DNA of 64,000 nt from Breznakiella homolactica (GTDB lineage Bacteria; Spirochaetota; Spirochaetia; Treponematales; Breznakiellaceae): NCBI RefSeq assembly GCF_016616095.2, contig NZ_CP067089.2, forward strand, positions 2,294,001 to 2,358,000. The letters run 5' to 3'. Under the pieces are notes generated by a model, which had not been told where the DNA came from, did not search any database, and saw only the letters and a program-made list of their open reading frames with translations. Both the position numbers and the translations under genes were made by a program. Positions 12,216 through 20,584 of the stretch are shown here, piece by piece; the stretch's first letter is position 1; every line of letters starts with the position of its first letter.

Positions 12216-12644
12216 TCAGCCGGCGGTATGGTCCGGACCGCCGGCGGCGTTTTTCCTGCACCCGGGGCAGATCCCGGTAAAATACAGAATATGGCTCCGG
12301 ACTTCCGCCCCCTGCTCTTCTTCAAATTTTCTGATGAGACCGGTAATTGTGCAGGAACCCATATCGATAAAACAGTGGCATTGTTCGCAGTGGAACCAAT
12401 GGGTATGGGACAGGGTATTTTTTAAAGAACAGAAATACCGTTCCGCGCCGTGTTCCTGGCAGTACAGAACAAAGGATTCCGCCTGTCCCGAGGATTCAAG
12501 GTAATGCAGGGACCGGTACACGGTGGCCTGGTCGCAGGAATTTTCCATGAGACCGTACACCCCCGCGGCGGAAAGCGGTTCGGAGGCGCGGTTAAGGATA
12601 TCCAGAACCTGCCCCCTGGTTCGCGTCATAACGGCCTTTCCCAT
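12216..12644 (-). CDS. zur: Fur-family regulator, probable zinc sensor Zur
   Basis: A 142-residue DNA-binding metalloregulator. The N-terminal winged helix reads 'TRTRGQVLDILNRASEPLSAAGVYGLM' and 'DQATVYRSLHYLESSGQAE', the Fur-family recognition region. The dimerisation domain has the structural zinc cysteines CEQC (about 91-94) and CPGC (about 129-132) and the His-rich 'SHTHWFHCEQCHCF'. Being the last gene of the zinc ABC operon, with its start overlapping the znuB stop (TAATG), identifies it as Zur rather than Fur or PerR by context. It probably represses its own operon through the palindrome at 15205-15249. Confidence 0.88.
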   Translation of the reverse strand: MGKAVMTRTRGQVLDILNRASEPLSAAGVYGLMENSCDQATVYRSLHYLESSGQAESFVLYCQEHGAERYFCSLKNTLSHTHWFHCEQCHCFIDMGSCTITGLIRKFEEEQGAEVRSHILYFTGICPGCRKNAAGGPDHTAG

Positions 12645-13486
12645 TACCGCCCCCGTACGACCTTGATTCCCGCGGCCGCCAGAAACACGATGCCCGCCAG
12701 AATAACCACCATGGCGCCTACGGGCGCGTCAAAAGCCCAGCCAAGAATAAGGCCTCCGGTGGAAAAAAACGCCGAAAAGATTGTGCTGATCAGCATCATT
12801 CCCCCAAGGCTTTTCGAAACATAGGCGGCGCTGCCCGCCGGAAGCGTGAGCATGGCTATGACCATGACAATTCCCACAAAGGTCTGGAGAAGGACTATGG
12901 CCACCGCCACAATACTGAGGAGAATCAGAAACAGCGCCGCGGCAGGGACATTTCTGACCCTGGCGAATTCCTCGTCAAAAGAAGAAGCCGCGATCTGCGG
13001 GTAGAAACGCCACGCCAGGAAAACGACAATGCAGTCGAGGACGGCCATGAGCAGAAGGTCCCGGTTTGAAATGAGAAGAATATTCCCGAACAAATAGCTC
13101 GAAGGATCCGTGTACCCCGGGGTCTTTGCCATGAACAGCACCCCCACGCTCATGCCGATGGCCCATATTGCATTGATCACCGTATCCTCCCGCTGCTTGG
13201 CTTTGAGGGACACGATGCCGATAATCATCGCCGAAAGAAGGGCAAAAACGATAGCGCCGGCCATGGGCGGGAATCCCGGGATAATATTGGTTGCCGAAAA
13301 AAACAGCGCCATTCCGATCCCGCCGAGAACCGCGTGGGATATGGCTCCGGCAAGGCTCGCGATACGGCGGACCGTAACCACGGAACCGAGTATTCCAAAG
13401 AGAACCGACGAAAGCAATCCCGCAAAAAACGCGTTCCGGATAAAAGGGAAAGCCGGATTGCTCAGGGCTTCAATAAATCCGCTCAT
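12644..13486 (-). CDS. znuB: Zinc ABC transporter permease
   Basis: The membrane subunit of the zinc importer, 280 residues, ABC-3 family, with about eight membrane segments. Typical features are 'SLAGAISHAVLGGIGMAL' (the coupling region) near residue 40-57 and 'LLQTFVGIVMVIAMLTLPAGSAAYVSKSL' near 200-228. It overlaps znuC by 4 bp and zur by one base, so the four genes form one tightly packed operon. Confidence 0.93.
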   Translation of the reverse strand: MSGFIEALSNPAFPFIRNAFFAGLLSSVLFGILGSVVTVRRIASLAGAISHAVLGGIGMALFFSATNIIPGFPPMAGAIVFALLSAMIIGIVSLKAKQREDTVINAIWAIGMSVGVLFMAKTPGYTDPSSYLFGNILLISNRDLLLMAVLDCIVVFLAWRFYPQIAASSFDEEFARVRNVPAAALFLILLSIVAVAIVLLQTFVGIVMVIAMLTLPAGSAAYVSKSLGGMMLISTIFSAFFSTGGLILGWAFDAPVGAMVVILAGIVFLAAAGIKVVRGR

Positions 13487-14286
13487 TTACCGCCCTCCTC
13501 TTCATAGCAGCTGTTGCCGGGAATGCTGGAATTGTGGTTGATCCGGTAATTCCCCGGGGAATCAGCTTCCGCGCCGAGGCTCTCCGGATGGGTTTTATGC
13601 TGAACCACCCCGTAGGGATTGCCGGGATTCTCCCGGGAGCCGAGGCAGAGAACCCGGTCCGTAAGGGAGGAAACGAATGCCGTATCATGGGTCACGATAA
13701 GAATCGTGGTACTCCCCTTGAGCCGCCCCAGGGTTTTGAAAAGACGCTCCTCGCTCTCCTCATCCATATTGGCGGTGGGTTCATCCAGGAGAAGAAAATT
13801 CGGGCTCGCCGCCAGCGCCCGGGCGACGAGGACCCGCCGGCGCTGTCCGCCGGAAAGGGCTGTGTACGGCCTGGCGGCAAGATCCGTGATTTCGACCTGG
13901 GCAAGGGCTTCGTCCACGGCACGGCTGTCCTCGGCGGTGAACTTCCGCGACAGCGGCCGGAGGCGTCCCATTTTTACAACCTCCCGCACCGAAATAGGAA
14001 AGGCCTGATCGTATCCCGCCTGCTGGGGAACATACCCGATACGGTTCCGGGATGAACGGGGACTCGCCCCCAGAAGTTCAATCCTTCCGGCCTGGGGTTC
14101 TTCGAGGCCGAGAATCAGTTTGAGGATTGTCGTTTTGCCGGACCCGTTGGGTCCGACCAGGGCTACGAATTCACCCTGATGGATATGGAACCCAGCGTGT
14201 CTGAGAACCGCGACGGCGCCGTATGAAAAGGATACATCATCAAAGTACAGGGTAATATCCCGGTCAACCGGATGGAAGGGTTTCAC
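13483..14286 (-). CDS. znuC: Zinc ABC transporter ATP-binding protein
   Basis: The ATPase of the zinc importer, 267 residues. Walker A GPNGSGKTT (about 44-52), signature LSGGQRRRV (about 143-151) and Walker B FLLLDEPTAN are all intact, and 'GYVPQQAGYDQAFPISVREVVKMGRL' is characteristic of ABC-3 metal-type ATPases. A C-terminal tail with several His and one Cys extends beyond the core and might bind zinc. It overlaps both neighbours by 4 bp. Confidence 0.94.
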   Translation of the reverse strand: MKPFHPVDRDITLYFDDVSFSYGAVAVLRHAGFHIHQGEFVALVGPNGSGKTTILKLILGLEEPQAGRIELLGASPRSSRNRIGYVPQQAGYDQAFPISVREVVKMGRLRPLSRKFTAEDSRAVDEALAQVEITDLAARPYTALSGGQRRRVLVARALAASPNFLLLDEPTANMDEESEERLFKTLGRLKGSTTILIVTHDTAFVSSLTDRVLCLGSRENPGNPYGVVQHKTHPESLGAEADSPGNYRINHNSSIPGNSCYEEEGGK

Positions 14287-15197
14287 GGGACTTCTCCGGT
14301 AAGGGCATCCTTGAGGGATTTCCCCATGAATCTGATATTGGCCAGCCAGTCCGGCGCGAGCGGGTCCAGGGGGATAACCCGGGCGCCGACGGAATCGGCC
14401 ACGGTTTTAGCGCTCTGCAGGGGAAACTGGGCCTGCACGAATATGGCCGCGGCGTTTTCGGCCTGGGCCTTTTCTATAAGTTCCGCAAGTACCCTGGGGG
14501 TGGGTTCTTTTCCGCCGGTTTCAACGGCTTCCTGTTCAATACCGAATTCATCCAGAAAATACCCGAACGAAGGATGGTACACAAATACGGTCCGTCCCCG
14601 GAGCGGTTCCAGCTCCCTGCCGAGGCTGTCGAACTCCCGGTCAATGTCGGCGGCGAGGATAGTATAGTTTTGTTCGTACAGGGCCGCATGGTCCCCGTCT
14701 ATGGAGATGAACAGGTCCCGTATATGGGCGGCCATGATCTTCGCCGGTTCCCTTCCAAGCCAGGTATGCCGGTCCAGCTCCATCCCATGAACCGGTCCGG
14801 AACCGGAAGGCTCGGAATGGCCGTGGCTGTCCAGCATTCTGAACTGAACCCCGTCGGTACCGTCAACGATTACAAGGTCCGGACAGAGTTCCTCGATTTT
14901 AGGCTTTAAAGAGATTTCAAAATCCGTATTGGAAAGCACCCATCCCCGGGCCTCCGCCAGAAGCGCCATCTGCCGCGGGGTCGGTTCATAGGAGTGGGGA
15001 CTCTGTCCCGGGCCTACGAGAACCACCGTTTCCGCCAGGTCTCCGGCGATACGTTCTATAAAATACGACTGGGGGAGGATACTCACCGCTATAATGGGTT
15101 TTCCCGATTTCTGTTCCTGTCCGCCGTTTCCGTAAAGGGAACCGGCGATAATGACAGCAAAAACTGCAATACACCATAATCCTGAACTGCGTACCAT
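14283..15197 (-). CDS. znuA: Zinc ABC transporter substrate-binding protein
   Basis: A periplasmic cluster A-I metal-binding protein of 304 residues with a signal peptide (about 1-23). Likely metal ligands are His in GPGQSPHSYEP (about residue 68), in 'DRHTWLG' (about 142) and in 'FVYHPSFGYFLDEFG' (about 210), plus an acidic residue near the C-terminus; the short acidic/His loop 'DSHGHSEPSGSGPVHG' is typical of ZnuA rather than manganese-type proteins. The ATG at 15197 has GGAG seven bases upstream. First gene of the operon; the leader contains half of the 45-bp palindrome. Confidence 0.92.
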   Translation of the reverse strand: MVRSSGLWCIAVFAVIIAGSLYGNGGQEQKSGKPIIAVSILPQSYFIERIAGDLAETVVLVGPGQSPHSYEPTPRQMALLAEARGWVLSNTDFEISLKPKIEELCPDLVIVDGTDGVQFRMLDSHGHSEPSGSGPVHGMELDRHTWLGREPAKIMAAHIRDLFISIDGDHAALYEQNYTILAADIDREFDSLGRELEPLRGRTVFVYHPSFGYFLDEFGIEQEAVETGGKEPTPRVLAELIEKAQAENAAAIFVQAQFPLQSAKTVADSVGARVIPLDPLAPDWLANIRFMGKSLKDALTGEVP

Positions 15198-17333: not shown

Positions 17334-17360
17334 TAAAAAAACAGCCCCTGGAGGGGCTGT
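17334..17360 (-). terminator. Rho-independent terminator of smsC-smsB
   Basis: ACAGCCCCT-GG-AGGGGCTGT (17341-17360). On the minus strand it is followed by seven T (17341-17335). It lies just past the smsB stop. Confidence 0.9.
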
Positions 17361-17377: not shown

Positions 17378-18307
17378 TTACTTTAAGAACCCTTCTACGA
17401 TTTTTGCTTCCGCTTCTTCCTCGGACAAGCCCAGGGTCATGAGCTTAAGAATCTGCTCACCGGCGATTTTCCCGATGGCTGCTTCATGGATAAGTTCCGC
17501 GTCGGCATGGTTGGCGGTTATTTCCGGAATGGCCTGCACGCTGGCGCTGTCCATGATAATGGCGTCACATTCTGAATGCCCCATGGAAGGCGCGTTTCCG
17601 TTGATCCTGGACAGGAAAACCTGCTTTGATTTTCCCTTTGCCACCGAACGGGATACCACGTTTGTGGAAGCCCCCTCGCCGTTGAGCTCAACCCGGAACT
17701 CCGTCTCAGCGAACTGGGTCCCGCTGGTCATGAGTTTTTCCTTGATAACCAGGGTGGCGCCGTCCTTCAGCTCCGCTTCGGTGATCCGTTTGGTGGAATC
17801 GACCCCTTCAATCTGCACCGTGTCCATTTCCATATATGAACCGTCTTCCATAAAAACATTGGTAACCGGATTGAGGATCCGTTCCCCCGAACCTTCTCCG
17901 GCGCCGTAATGTTTTTCGATATACCGGACCCGGGAATTCTTTTCCAGGTGAAATGTATGGATCCCGTCGTGACGGGCACGGCTTGCTCCGGGGTTATGGA
18001 TTCCGCATCCGGCTACAACCGTAACATCCGCCCCTTCCCCGATATAAAAATCATTGTACACAGTTTCCTCATGGCCGGTCTTGCTGAGGACCACCGGAAT
18101 ATGGACGTGATCGTGCCTGGTTCCCGGTTTGACCCGGATATCCATTCCGCTCTTATCGGTTTTAAAAATAATCTGGATGTCATCGGTACTGCTGGAACCG
18201 ATACTTTTTCCGTCCACCCTGATGTTGTACGCACCCCGGGGCAGTTCAGAAATCCCGGCTATTTTTTCGAGTATATTCTTTTCTATAGTATTTAATGGAT
18301 TATTCAA
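17378..18307 (-). CDS. SufB/SufD-like scaffold of a minimal SUF system (SmsB-like)
   Basis: A 309-residue beta-helix scaffold protein for Fe–S cluster assembly. It is much shorter than SufB (about 470) and fits the SmsB partner of the two-gene SUF-like minimal system. The C-terminal block 'GHSECDAIIMDSASVQAIPEI' and 'DAELIHEAAIGKIAGEQILKLMTLGLSEEEAEAKIVEGFL' is the conserved SufB/D core, including the cluster-region His. It overlaps smsC by 4 bp. No sufS, sufU or sufE gene is adjacent, so sulfur must come from elsewhere. It could loosely be called SufD, but the pairing with a lone SufC argues for the minimal system. Confidence 0.85.
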   Translation of the reverse strand: MNNPLNTIEKNILEKIAGISELPRGAYNIRVDGKSIGSSSTDDIQIIFKTDKSGMDIRVKPGTRHDHVHIPVVLSKTGHEETVYNDFYIGEGADVTVVAGCGIHNPGASRARHDGIHTFHLEKNSRVRYIEKHYGAGEGSGERILNPVTNVFMEDGSYMEMDTVQIEGVDSTKRITEAELKDGATLVIKEKLMTSGTQFAETEFRVELNGEGASTNVVSRSVAKGKSKQVFLSRINGNAPSMGHSECDAIIMDSASVQAIPEITANHADAELIHEAAIGKIAGEQILKLMTLGLSEEEAEAKIVEGFLK

Positions 18308-19035
18308 AACACCGTACCTCCGTTATGGAATGAACAGCCGCCGACGCCCTGCATAAGCCCCGGCAGTATTGTGTCCCGGCTGCCAAGATCCGTGATTTCT
18401 CCGCCCTTGAGAACAACAATGGTATCGGCGATCTCGAGGATACGTTCCTGGTGGGAGATAATAACCACCGCGCCCTTTGTCCTGTCCCGCATTTTTTCGA
18501 AAACCCGGATCAGGTTCTGGAAACTCCAGAGATCTATACCAGCTTCCGGTTCATCGAAGAGGGAAATTTTTACCCCCCGGGCAATAAGCATGGCGATTTC
18601 AACCCGTTTGAGCTCTCCCCCGGAGAGGCTCGCGTTGATTTCGCGGTTGATATAATCCTTGGCGCAGAGGCCCACCTCAGACAGGTAGACACAGGCTTCA
18701 TCAATACTGAGGGGTTTTCCCACCGCGAGTTCAATCAGATCCTTTATGGCAAATCCTTTAAACCGTACCGGCTGCTGAAAGGCAAATCCGATCCCGGCTT
18801 TTGCCCGCTGGGTCACATCCCAGCCGGTGATATCTTCGCCGTTAAATATGATGCTGCCGCTGCCGGGATGTTCAATACCCATGATTATTTTCGCCAGGGT
18901 CGATTTTCCGCTTCCGTTCGGTCCGGTAATAACCAGAAAACGGTCGTCCCCGATGGTAAGGCTGATATTTTTGAGAATTTCCTTTGACCCCGTCTCCTGA
19001 GGAACGGAAAAGGAAATATTTTTAAGTTCAAGCAT
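18304..19035 (-). CDS. sufC: SufC-like ATPase of a minimal SUF system (SmsC-like)
   Basis: A cytosolic ABC-type ATPase that works with SmsB/SufB, not a transporter. 243 residues from the ATG at 19035. Walker A GPNGSGKST, 'GIGFAFQQPVRFKG' (Q-loop), signature LSGGELKRVEIA and Walker B ISLFDEPEAGIDLWS are complete and SufC-like. The ATG follows GGGGGAG; the longer frame uses a TTG inside the poly-T of the leader terminator and is unlikely. It heads the operon, and its leader carries a terminator and a yybP-ykoY-like aptamer. Confidence 0.92.
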   Translation of the reverse strand: MLELKNISFSVPQETGSKEILKNISLTIGDDRFLVITGPNGSGKSTLAKIIMGIEHPGSGSIIFNGEDITGWDVTQRAKAGIGFAFQQPVRFKGFAIKDLIELAVGKPLSIDEACVYLSEVGLCAKDYINREINASLSGGELKRVEIAMLIARGVKISLFDEPEAGIDLWSFQNLIRVFEKMRDRTKGAVVIISHQERILEIADTIVVLKGGEITDLGSRDTILPGLMQGVGGCSFHNGGTVF

Positions 19036-19045
19036 TCTCTCCCCC

Positions 19046-19091
19046 AAAAAAAAGACTTTTAACAGAACGGATGCCGCCCTGTCAAAAGTCT
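19046..19091 (-). terminator. Leader terminator (attenuator) immediately before the smsC SD
   Basis: On the minus strand AGACTTTTGACAG (19091-19079) pairs with CTGTTAAAAGTCT (19065-19053), one G·U, followed by eight T (19053-19046). There is no upstream minus-strand gene to terminate (the neighbour is divergent), so it must act on the smsCB transcript. Confidence 0.85.
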
Positions 19092-19172
19092 CGTTACTTT
19101 ATTATAAGCCGCAGAGCCAGGCAATTCCGTACCAGTATGTTGACCGCTGCGTTACAACTACTCCCTTTCAAC
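19081..19172 (-). ncRNA. yybP-ykoY-like (manganese) riboswitch aptamer upstream of smsC
   Basis: Minus-strand RNA from 19172. It contains AAAGGGAGUAG (19168-19158), GGUCAACAUACUGG (about 19145-19132) and AACGAGACUUUUGAC (19095-19081), which match remembered hallmarks of the yybP-ykoY class (GGGGAGUAG, GUCAACAUAC, ACGAGACCUUU). P1 forms from GUUGAAAG (19172-19165) with CUUUUGAC (19088-19081), and the 3' strand of P1 is also the 5' strand of the terminator, giving mutually exclusive folds. Closing P1 would block termination, so this should be an ON switch. The ligand in the known class is Mn2+. The association with Fe–S assembly genes is unexpected. Confidence 0.75.
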
Positions 19173-19178
19173 AGTAAT

Positions 19179-19208
19179 AGGTTACTAACTTTCACGGGTA
19201 TTCGTCAA
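19179..19208 (-). promoter_or_regulatory. Promoter of the smsC-smsB operon
   Basis: Minus strand TTGACG (19208-19203), 18-bp spacer, TAACCT (19184-19179). The predicted +1 at about 19172 coincides with the first base of riboswitch helix P1. Confidence 0.55.
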
Positions 19209-19324: not shown

Positions 19325-20584
19325 ATGAAAAAAATAAACGGCGTTATTTTGGCGCTGGTGGTTGCGGTATCCGGAGTTCTGCCCGGATGCACCGCAAAGC
19401 AGGATTTCTTAGATACGGTTCAGAACGGAACTATCGATGAGATACAGGCTGCTATCAGCAAGGGAGCGGACGTAAATACCCAGGATGAAGATGGCTGGTC
19501 GGCGCTTATGTTTGCCGCCGGCTTCAATACCGATCCCAAGGTGATATCCCTGCTGCTCAATGAGGGAGCCAGGCTGAATGACCGGGATCAGGATGGATGG
19601 ACTGCTCTCATGTTTGCCCTGGAATTCAACGAAAACCAGGAAGCCACAGAGGTACTGCTTCAGGCCGGCGCAAAGGTGAACGACAAGGAAATCGACGGTA
19701 TGACACCGCTGATGATAGCGCTGCGGACGAATAAGGATCTCAGAGTTATCAATACCCTCATCTCCGCCGGCGCGGATGTCAACGCCAAGGATAAAGAAGA
19801 CTGGTCCGTACTTATGCACGCGGCGGGAACGAATCCGGACCTGGCGGTGATTGAACGGCTGACCGCCGCCGGCGCGCGGATAAATGACCGGGATGAAGAC
19901 GGCTGGACGGCTTTTATGCATGCCGCCGCGTTTAATGAAAACCCCGGGATGATTAAATTCTTCCTGGACCGCGGAGAGAATATCCATGACAGGGATAATA
20001 ACGGAGCAACGGTGCTCATGAACGGAGTCGCCCATAACGAAAACACAGCGGTTATCCAGGCATTGCTTAACGCGGGAGCCCGGATCAATGACTACGACAA
20101 TGAGGAATGGACTGTCCTGATGCACGCAGCGGGGTACAACGAAGCTGAAGCTATTACGGATTTGCTCCTTTCCAAAGGGGCGGAGATCAATAGCCGTGAT
20201 GTAGACGGCTGGACCCCGCTGATGCACGCGTCGGCGTTTAACGAAAACCCCGCTGTTGCCGAACGGCTGCTGAAGGCGGGAGCCGATGTAAATGACCGGG
20301 ATTACGACGGCTGGACCGTACTCATGATTGCCGCGGGCCACAATGAGGAGCCGGCAATAATCGGGGTGCTGCTGAACGCGGGAGCGGAACTTGAGGCTAT
20401 GGATGAGGAAGGCTGGACCCCGCTGATGCACGCCGCGGCGTTTACCAGCAATCCTGAGATGCTTGAGGTACTCATTGCCGCCGGAGCGAATACCAAGGTA
20501 CGGGACAGCGACGGCATAACCATAAAGCAATACGCCGAGGATAACGAGGATATTGCCAAATCAAAGGTTATCAAAAAATTGTAA
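19325..20584 (+). CDS. Ankyrin-repeat lipoprotein
   Basis: A 419-residue exported protein. The lipobox LPGC (Cys22) follows a hydrophobic signal, so it is membrane-anchored and faces the periplasm or surface. From about residue 28 to 405 it is built of ankyrin repeats. Ten consecutive repeats, counted from DGW to DGW, are each exactly 34 residues long (core 'DGWTPLMHAAAFNENP…LLKAGADVNDRD'), one residue longer than the usual 33. A protein-binding role is probable; the partner is unknown. It is monocistronic, with a strong terminator after the stop, and divergent from the smsCB operon. Confidence 0.9.
   Translation: MKKINGVILALVVAVSGVLPGCTAKQDFLDTVQNGTIDEIQAAISKGADVNTQDEDGWSALMFAAGFNTDPKVISLLLNEGARLNDRDQDGWTALMFALEFNENQEATEVLLQAGAKVNDKEIDGMTPLMIALRTNKDLRVINTLISAGADVNAKDKEDWSVLMHAAGTNPDLAVIERLTAAGARINDRDEDGWTAFMHAAAFNENPGMIKFFLDRGENIHDRDNNGATVLMNGVAHNENTAVIQALLNAGARINDYDNEEWTVLMHAAGYNEAEAITDLLLSKGAEINSRDVDGWTPLMHASAFNENPAVAERLLKAGADVNDRDYDGWTVLMIAAGHNEEPAIIGVLLNAGAELEAMDEEGWTPLMHAAAFTSNPEMLEVLIAAGANTKVRDSDGITIKQYAEDNEDIAKSKVIKKL

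Follow-up and report, generated by a model that had tools for sequence, protein, structure and literature searches.

A predicted mntP-type manganese riboswitch in front of a minimal Fe–S assembly operon in Breznakiella homolactica

Manganese toxicity is thought to be due in part to failing Fe–S and heme assembly, and the known targets of manganese riboswitches serve mainly the removal of the metal. In the yybP-ykoY class of these RNAs (Rfam RF00080), which includes the ON switches of L. lactis yoaB and X. oryzae, Mn2+ is contacted through the N7 of an adenosine, A41 in L. lactis and A48 in X. oryzae (PMC9190785, PMC6754395). Members acting as transcriptional ON switches use helix P1.1 to compete with a terminator, an antitermination mechanism that has been put to the test with the X. 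oryzae switch (PMC6754395). In E. coli, Fe–S biogenesis suffers from an excess of manganese (PMC9603457), and in a Synechocystis exporter mutant sufBCDS was found to be raised under manganese stress, a response attributed to SufR (PMC11649195). The SMS system (SmsC2B2), a minimal SUF-like Fe–S assembly system, as encoded by MJ0035/MJ0034 in Methanocaldococcus jannaschii and TK0730/TK0731 in Thermococcus kodakarensis, comprises a SufC-like ATPase and one SufB/D-core protein, with no SufD. Riboswitch control of SMS is not described in the literature we searched. Likewise, the open-access texts yielded no published link between yybP-ykoY and suf or sms genes, in agreement with a previous sequence-only reading of the DNA analyzed here, which knew of none.

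We analyzed a 64,000-nucleotide stretch of the Breznakiella homolactica genome (the window), where an operon of the SMS composition is preceded by a leader resembling the yybP-ykoY class. While the RNA class is already known, its smsCB target appears to be new. On the minus strand, a candidate promoter is followed by a compactly folded RNA and then by a strong terminator (19208-19046), which the ribosome site of smsC adjoins. The leader itself (19173-19046) consists of a yybP-ykoY (Mn2+) aptamer fused to the intrinsic terminator. Its target is an Fe–S scaffold operon rather than the exporter gene expected for the class.

The first gene, smsC (18304-19035, minus strand), encodes a SufC-like ABC ATPase of 243 aa. 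Its best NCBIfam match is TIGR01978 (sufC), below cut-off, and its best PDB match is the SmsC protein MJ0035 (E 3.7e-41). The second, smsB (17378-18307, minus strand), overlaps the stop codon of smsC and encodes a SufB/D-core scaffold protein of 309 aa, which matches PF01458 (E 7.6e-24) and the SmsB structure of MJ0034 (E 6e-19), MJ0035 and MJ0034 being proven SMS proteins; neither protein of the window reaches a curated NCBIfam cut-off. Among the candidate cluster-ligating residues, both cysteines of SmsB, Cys 101 and Cys 247, occur in 99/99 relatives, and Cys 115, 124 and 234 of SmsC are present in most. Unlike most archaeal SmsC proteins, that of the window lacks a C-X-X-C motif in its tail, which carries the single conserved Cys 234. 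An intrinsic terminator with an 8-bp stem followed by a T-run (17341-17360, minus strand) closes the smsC-smsB unit, and the leader therefore serves two genes. The earlier description of a leader before a minimal SufC/SufB-type Fe–S operon holds. At E<=0.001, the genome contains only one SufB/D-type match and no SufD. It also encodes one NifU/IscU-type scaffold, so that SmsCB is not the sole candidate scaffold.

A metal-import cluster lies near smsCB (12216-15197, minus strand), comprising a ZnuA-type binding protein, an ABC ATPase, an ABC-3 permease and a Fur-family regulator, and is parted from it by an M28 peptidase gene and the terminator. A single manganese-controlled operon extending from smsCB through the M28 peptidase to the znu genes was considered and rejected because of the terminator following smsB.

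The aptamer (19080-19173, minus strand) is a compact form without the P2 hairpin, built from P1.1, L1, P1.2, P3.1, L3, P3.2 and a short P4. As read from the sequence, its P1 strands are GUUGAAAG (19172-19165) and CUUUUGAC (19088-19081), with the 3' strand of P1.1 placed at 19088-19080. The 5' strand of L1, GGGAGUAG, is located at 19158-19165 with GAGA opposite at 19092-19089, and its GGAGUAG is invariant in 17 of 17 aligned leaders. The P3.1-L3-P3.2 arm spans 19110-19151, with P3.1 formed by CGCAGcGGUCA and UGGCUCUGCG and carrying compensatory changes with respect to relatives. Within it, the P3.1/L3 segment GGUCA-ACAUACU (19145-19134) faces UGG at 19119-19117. In L3 itself (ACAUACU, 19134-19140), the alignment places the Mn-contacting adenosine at 19138, assigned through the A-U-A-C-U context of X. 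oryzae A48. Judged by this alignment, position 19138 corresponds to the Mn-sensing adenosine A41 of L. lactis and A48 of X. oryzae, which is kept here.

The leader has in common with the described RF00080 switches the L1 sequence GGGAGUAG...GAGAC, the L3 sequence UCAACAUAC...UGGC and this adenosine, and the alignment recovers the L1 and L3 consensus in the proper order and spacing. It differs from them in the absence of P2 and in a rudimentary P4, and a four-way junction that includes both of these hairpins is missing. Because members of the class differ in this respect, with P4 absent from the mntP leaders of Treponema and P2 normally absent from those of the window's own family, we did not count the junction as defining. 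The bases conserved across the aligned leaders are well represented in the window, with all invariant bases of L1 and L3 retained and 14 of the 15 unpaired bases that are invariant in relatives kept, the exception lying in the P4 loop. Similarly, 30 of 32 model pairs are kept, eight of which have changed on both sides and still pair, including pairs of P3.1 and P4 pairs that went from C-G to U-A. Folded as a single sequence, the aptamer by itself is no stabler than shuffles (z -0.27), and its folding energy is thus no evidence either way. The sequence-only reading had placed the aptamer elements in this order on the minus strand and had proposed the conservation of the L1 and L3 nucleotides in relatives as a check; both were recovered.

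That reading had also named a covariance search with RF00080 as a check, and here the leader fell short. The Rfam 15 model (177 positions, gathering cut-off 45 bits) scored it at only 13.8 bits. However, calibration on real mntP leaders of relatives gave 27.1 (L178), 20.2 (L020) and 18.7 bits (L018), and no match at E<=1 for that of L016; among 14 named control genomes, the model exceeded its cut-off in only two. As genuine mntP leaders of this clade score 18.7-27.1 bits or nothing, the cut-off is uninformative here, and we rejected the shortfall as a negative test. As an observation in its own right, RF00080 misses clear mntP-linked riboswitches in the window's order (0 to 27 bits against 45), and the annotation of yybP-ykoY in this order is therefore probably very incomplete.

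Using a motif search, we found 15 of 294 genomes of the order to be positive, while a reversed-pattern control gave one. From relatives' leaders we built two covariance models, both without the window sequence. The first, R1, was built from 13 Treponema-type leaders of another family, 12 of which lie upstream of mntP and the remaining one upstream of a Gdt1/UPF0016-like gene, and has 27 pairs; its training alignment showed covariation above all shuffles. The smsC leader was its top match in the window, although a weak one (19.5 bits, E 0.0015). The second model, R2, was built from five leaders of the same family, four before mntP and one before a CitMHS-type permease. It recognized the smsC leader at 52.6 bits (E 1e-12 for the window); across the whole genome, where the leader ranked first, E was 7.3e-11. 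When 17 leaders were aligned by structure, 97% of the cells were paired and both sides had changed in 15 of the 32 pairs, compared with 3.6 +/- 1.5 in shuffles; none of 500 shuffles reached as high a count, in an alignment that was fitted to the model and leans towards it. Taken on sequence and covariation, the smsC leader is a genuine member of the yybP-ykoY (Mn2+) class, far beyond chance, as the sequence-only reading had proposed, and we infer that Mn2+ is the ligand of this copy.

The leaders of relatives precede known or probable manganese exporters, the downstream genes being named partly from their translations. mntP follows the leader in at least 12 genomes of the same family (L016, L178-L180, L189-L200) and in most Treponema-type ones. 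Other leaders are followed by Gdt1/UPF0016 genes (L017, L140), a CaCA-like exchanger (L141), P-type ATPases (L143-L156) or a CitMHS/ArsB-like permease (L186, L201, L215, L216, L218, L219, L223, L225). In genome G059, mntP is followed by a CitMHS/ArsB-like permease gene (L213). At five Treponema-type loci (L217, L220, L221, L222, L224) the aptamer stands before a gene whose translation, the only basis of its naming, reads like that of a sodium-pumping decarboxylase beta subunit (OadB type); this target was unexpected. The window's own genome contains a second, more distant aptamer at genome position 2246384-2246497 on the plus strand (L186:1501-1614; 28.4 bits, E 0.001), which has its own P1/terminator overlap and precedes a CitMHS/ArsB-like permease; this permease may be an unrecognized manganese transporter.

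Downstream of the aptamer, an intrinsic terminator (19046-19092, minus strand) is formed by a stem at 19092-19052 and a run of eight U at 19053-19046. The 5' arm of its stem includes the P1.1 3' strand. Directly after the U-run comes the ribosome-binding stretch GGGGGAGAG (19045-19037) of smsC, whose ATG is at 19035. By itself, this hairpin has a folding energy of -26.4 kcal/mol (z -6.95). The shared strand and the eight U just before smsC were already pointed out in the earlier reading, together with an ON-switch architecture, which the overlap with P1 bears out. The overlap is arranged alike in L016 and L178-L181. The minimum-energy fold of the free leader is the terminated form (-44.0 kcal/mol, compared with -31.2 when P1.1 is enforced), and a ligand must therefore hold P1.1 during transcription. 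With one strand common to P1 and the terminator, and with the smsC ribosome site directly following the U-run, a transcriptional ON switch is the natural reading, as in the described members of the class.

In the proposed mechanism, the 3' strand of P1.1 would be drawn into the long terminator hairpin when Mn2+ is absent, and transcription would halt at the U-run before reaching smsC. Mn2+ bridging L1 and L3 would hold P1.1, the terminator could then not form, and smsCB would be transcribed. The ON direction would apply in vivo as well. Its purpose would likely be to provide more Fe–S scaffold capacity when manganese overload disturbs the use of iron.

Transcription is expected to start at about 19172, the first base of P1, from a candidate promoter at 19179-19208 on the minus strand. 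As read from the sequence, it consists of TTGACG (19208-19203), an 18-nt spacer and TAACCT (19184-19179). The earlier claim of a promoter whose start coincides with P1 stands in part: the -35 is good and the geometry relative to P1 matches that of the aligned leaders of relatives, but the -10 is poor (3/6) and the promoter was absent from the output of a consensus promoter scan. The gene upstream of the leader is divergent, starting at 19325 on the plus strand, and its transcript therefore stays out of the smsC leader. With the U-run abutting the ribosome site and the upstream gene being divergent, there is no space for a second promoter between the terminator and smsC. The divergent gene (19325-20584, plus strand) encodes a secreted or lipoprotein-like ankyrin-repeat protein of 419 aa.

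Base by base and over their whole length, the promoter, aptamer and terminator in front of smsC align with those of mntP leaders, and we therefore regard them as the mntP-type leader of the family placed before smsCB. The same-family mntP leaders share with it the promoter spacing, P1.1, L1, L3, the position of P4 and the P1/terminator overlap, and evidently represent the same ancestral cassette. They differ in the distance between the U-run and the gene, which amounts to tens of bases in front of mntP, whereas the ribosome site of smsC touches the U-run. Altogether, the leader is probably a genuine mntP-type Mn2+ riboswitch through which Mn2+ switches on smsCB by antitermination, likely raising Fe–S scaffold capacity under manganese overload. 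Speaking against it are the occurrence of the pairing in one genome, the low RF00080 score, the weak -10 and the additional NifU/IscU-type scaffold, as well as features of the aptamer: a C that bulges from P3.1, the loss of two model pairs that shortens P3.2, and a P4 that is weak and rich in U-A.

What the arrangement does for the cell is a more tentative matter. It points to a direct activation of Fe–S assembly by manganese overload, and an increase in Fe–S scaffold production by manganese excess is plausible. We infer a physiological benefit of additional scaffold under these conditions. In its fullest form, this reading holds that the riboswitch turns on a dedicated, possibly Mn-tolerant SmsCB, which would protect cluster assembly during manganese overload; we give such a direct circuit from Mn2+ to Fe–S assembly slightly less than even chances. 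As in the Synechocystis exporter mutant, Fe–S assembly genes would answer manganese overload (PMC11649195). There the response is indirect, through the Fe–S repressor SufR, whereas in the window the manganese aptamer lies in the operon's own leader.

A somewhat unlikely, but still serious, alternative is that recombination or the loss of an mntP gene left an mntP-type promoter and riboswitch in front of a newly placed smsCB, the manganese response being incidental. The distribution of the pairing favors such a capture. It was seen in one genome only. A search before smsC gave no aptamer at 80 Clostridial loci (by motif scan and models) or at 19 further loci from the window's own phylum, all with this SmsB type, nor at the distant SMS loci found within the family. 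Clostridia commonly carry this SmsB type and some further members of the phylum have it, but it occurs in no other genome of our family sample, where only seven distant matches (26-36% identity) were found. Moreover, no aptamer precedes the mntP gene that this genome itself carries. On the other hand, compensatory substitutions have altered the helices, whereas the L1 and L3 bases and the terminator were kept, which argues that the RNA was under selection over its divergence from relatives, although part or all of that divergence may predate the pairing with smsCB. A comparison of the window with the mntP loci of eight relatives revealed no synteny that would indicate the replacement of mntP.

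With regard to the origin of smsCB, the best matches come from Lachnospiraceae (66-68%), but the tree weakly groups the window's SmsB with those of its own phylum (80% SH-aLRT); we therefore name no donor, Clostridial or other, and claim no transfer. In the Clostridial locus L058, the L1 consensus GGGGAGTAGC occurs about 45 nt upstream of smsC, probably by chance and with too little room for an aptamer. Other members of the family carry a different smsCB lineage directly downstream of a gene for a VIT1/CCC1-type Fe/Mn transporter (L003:3289-3756, L004:3302-3793). The transporter of L004 belongs to PF01988, providing another link of SMS to Mn/Fe transport.

It is improbable that the leader is a decayed look-alike of the class that has lost Mn2+ binding and leaves smsCB to basal read-through of the terminator. 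Its R2 score is the lowest among the aligned mntP-type leaders (52.6 versus 79-115 bits), and it has weak points in the -10 element, P4 and the shortened P3.2. Against this, the invariant bases of L1 and L3 are all in place, the paired changes are compensatory and the terminator is intact. Even less probable is the sensing of another metal, such as Fe2+, Cd2+ or Co2+/Ni2+, to which smsCB would then respond. An Fe–S assembly target would suit an iron signal, but the L3 bases are identical to those in the mntP leaders of relatives, and NiCo riboswitches form a separate class (PMC6754395). Finally, a plain terminator or attenuator resembling a riboswitch by chance, as the low Rfam score might suggest, is excluded in practice by the genome-wide E-value from a model built without this leader and by the base-by-base alignment with mntP leaders.

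On the side of method, the current Rfam model misses the yybP-ykoY riboswitch across much of the window's order. If the manganese-responsive reading of the smsC leader is true, SMS, a minimal Fe–S system of ancestral type, would gain a physiological signal in a bacterium, and the cell would meet manganese overload by strengthening the very process that is damaged, the assembly of Fe–S clusters.
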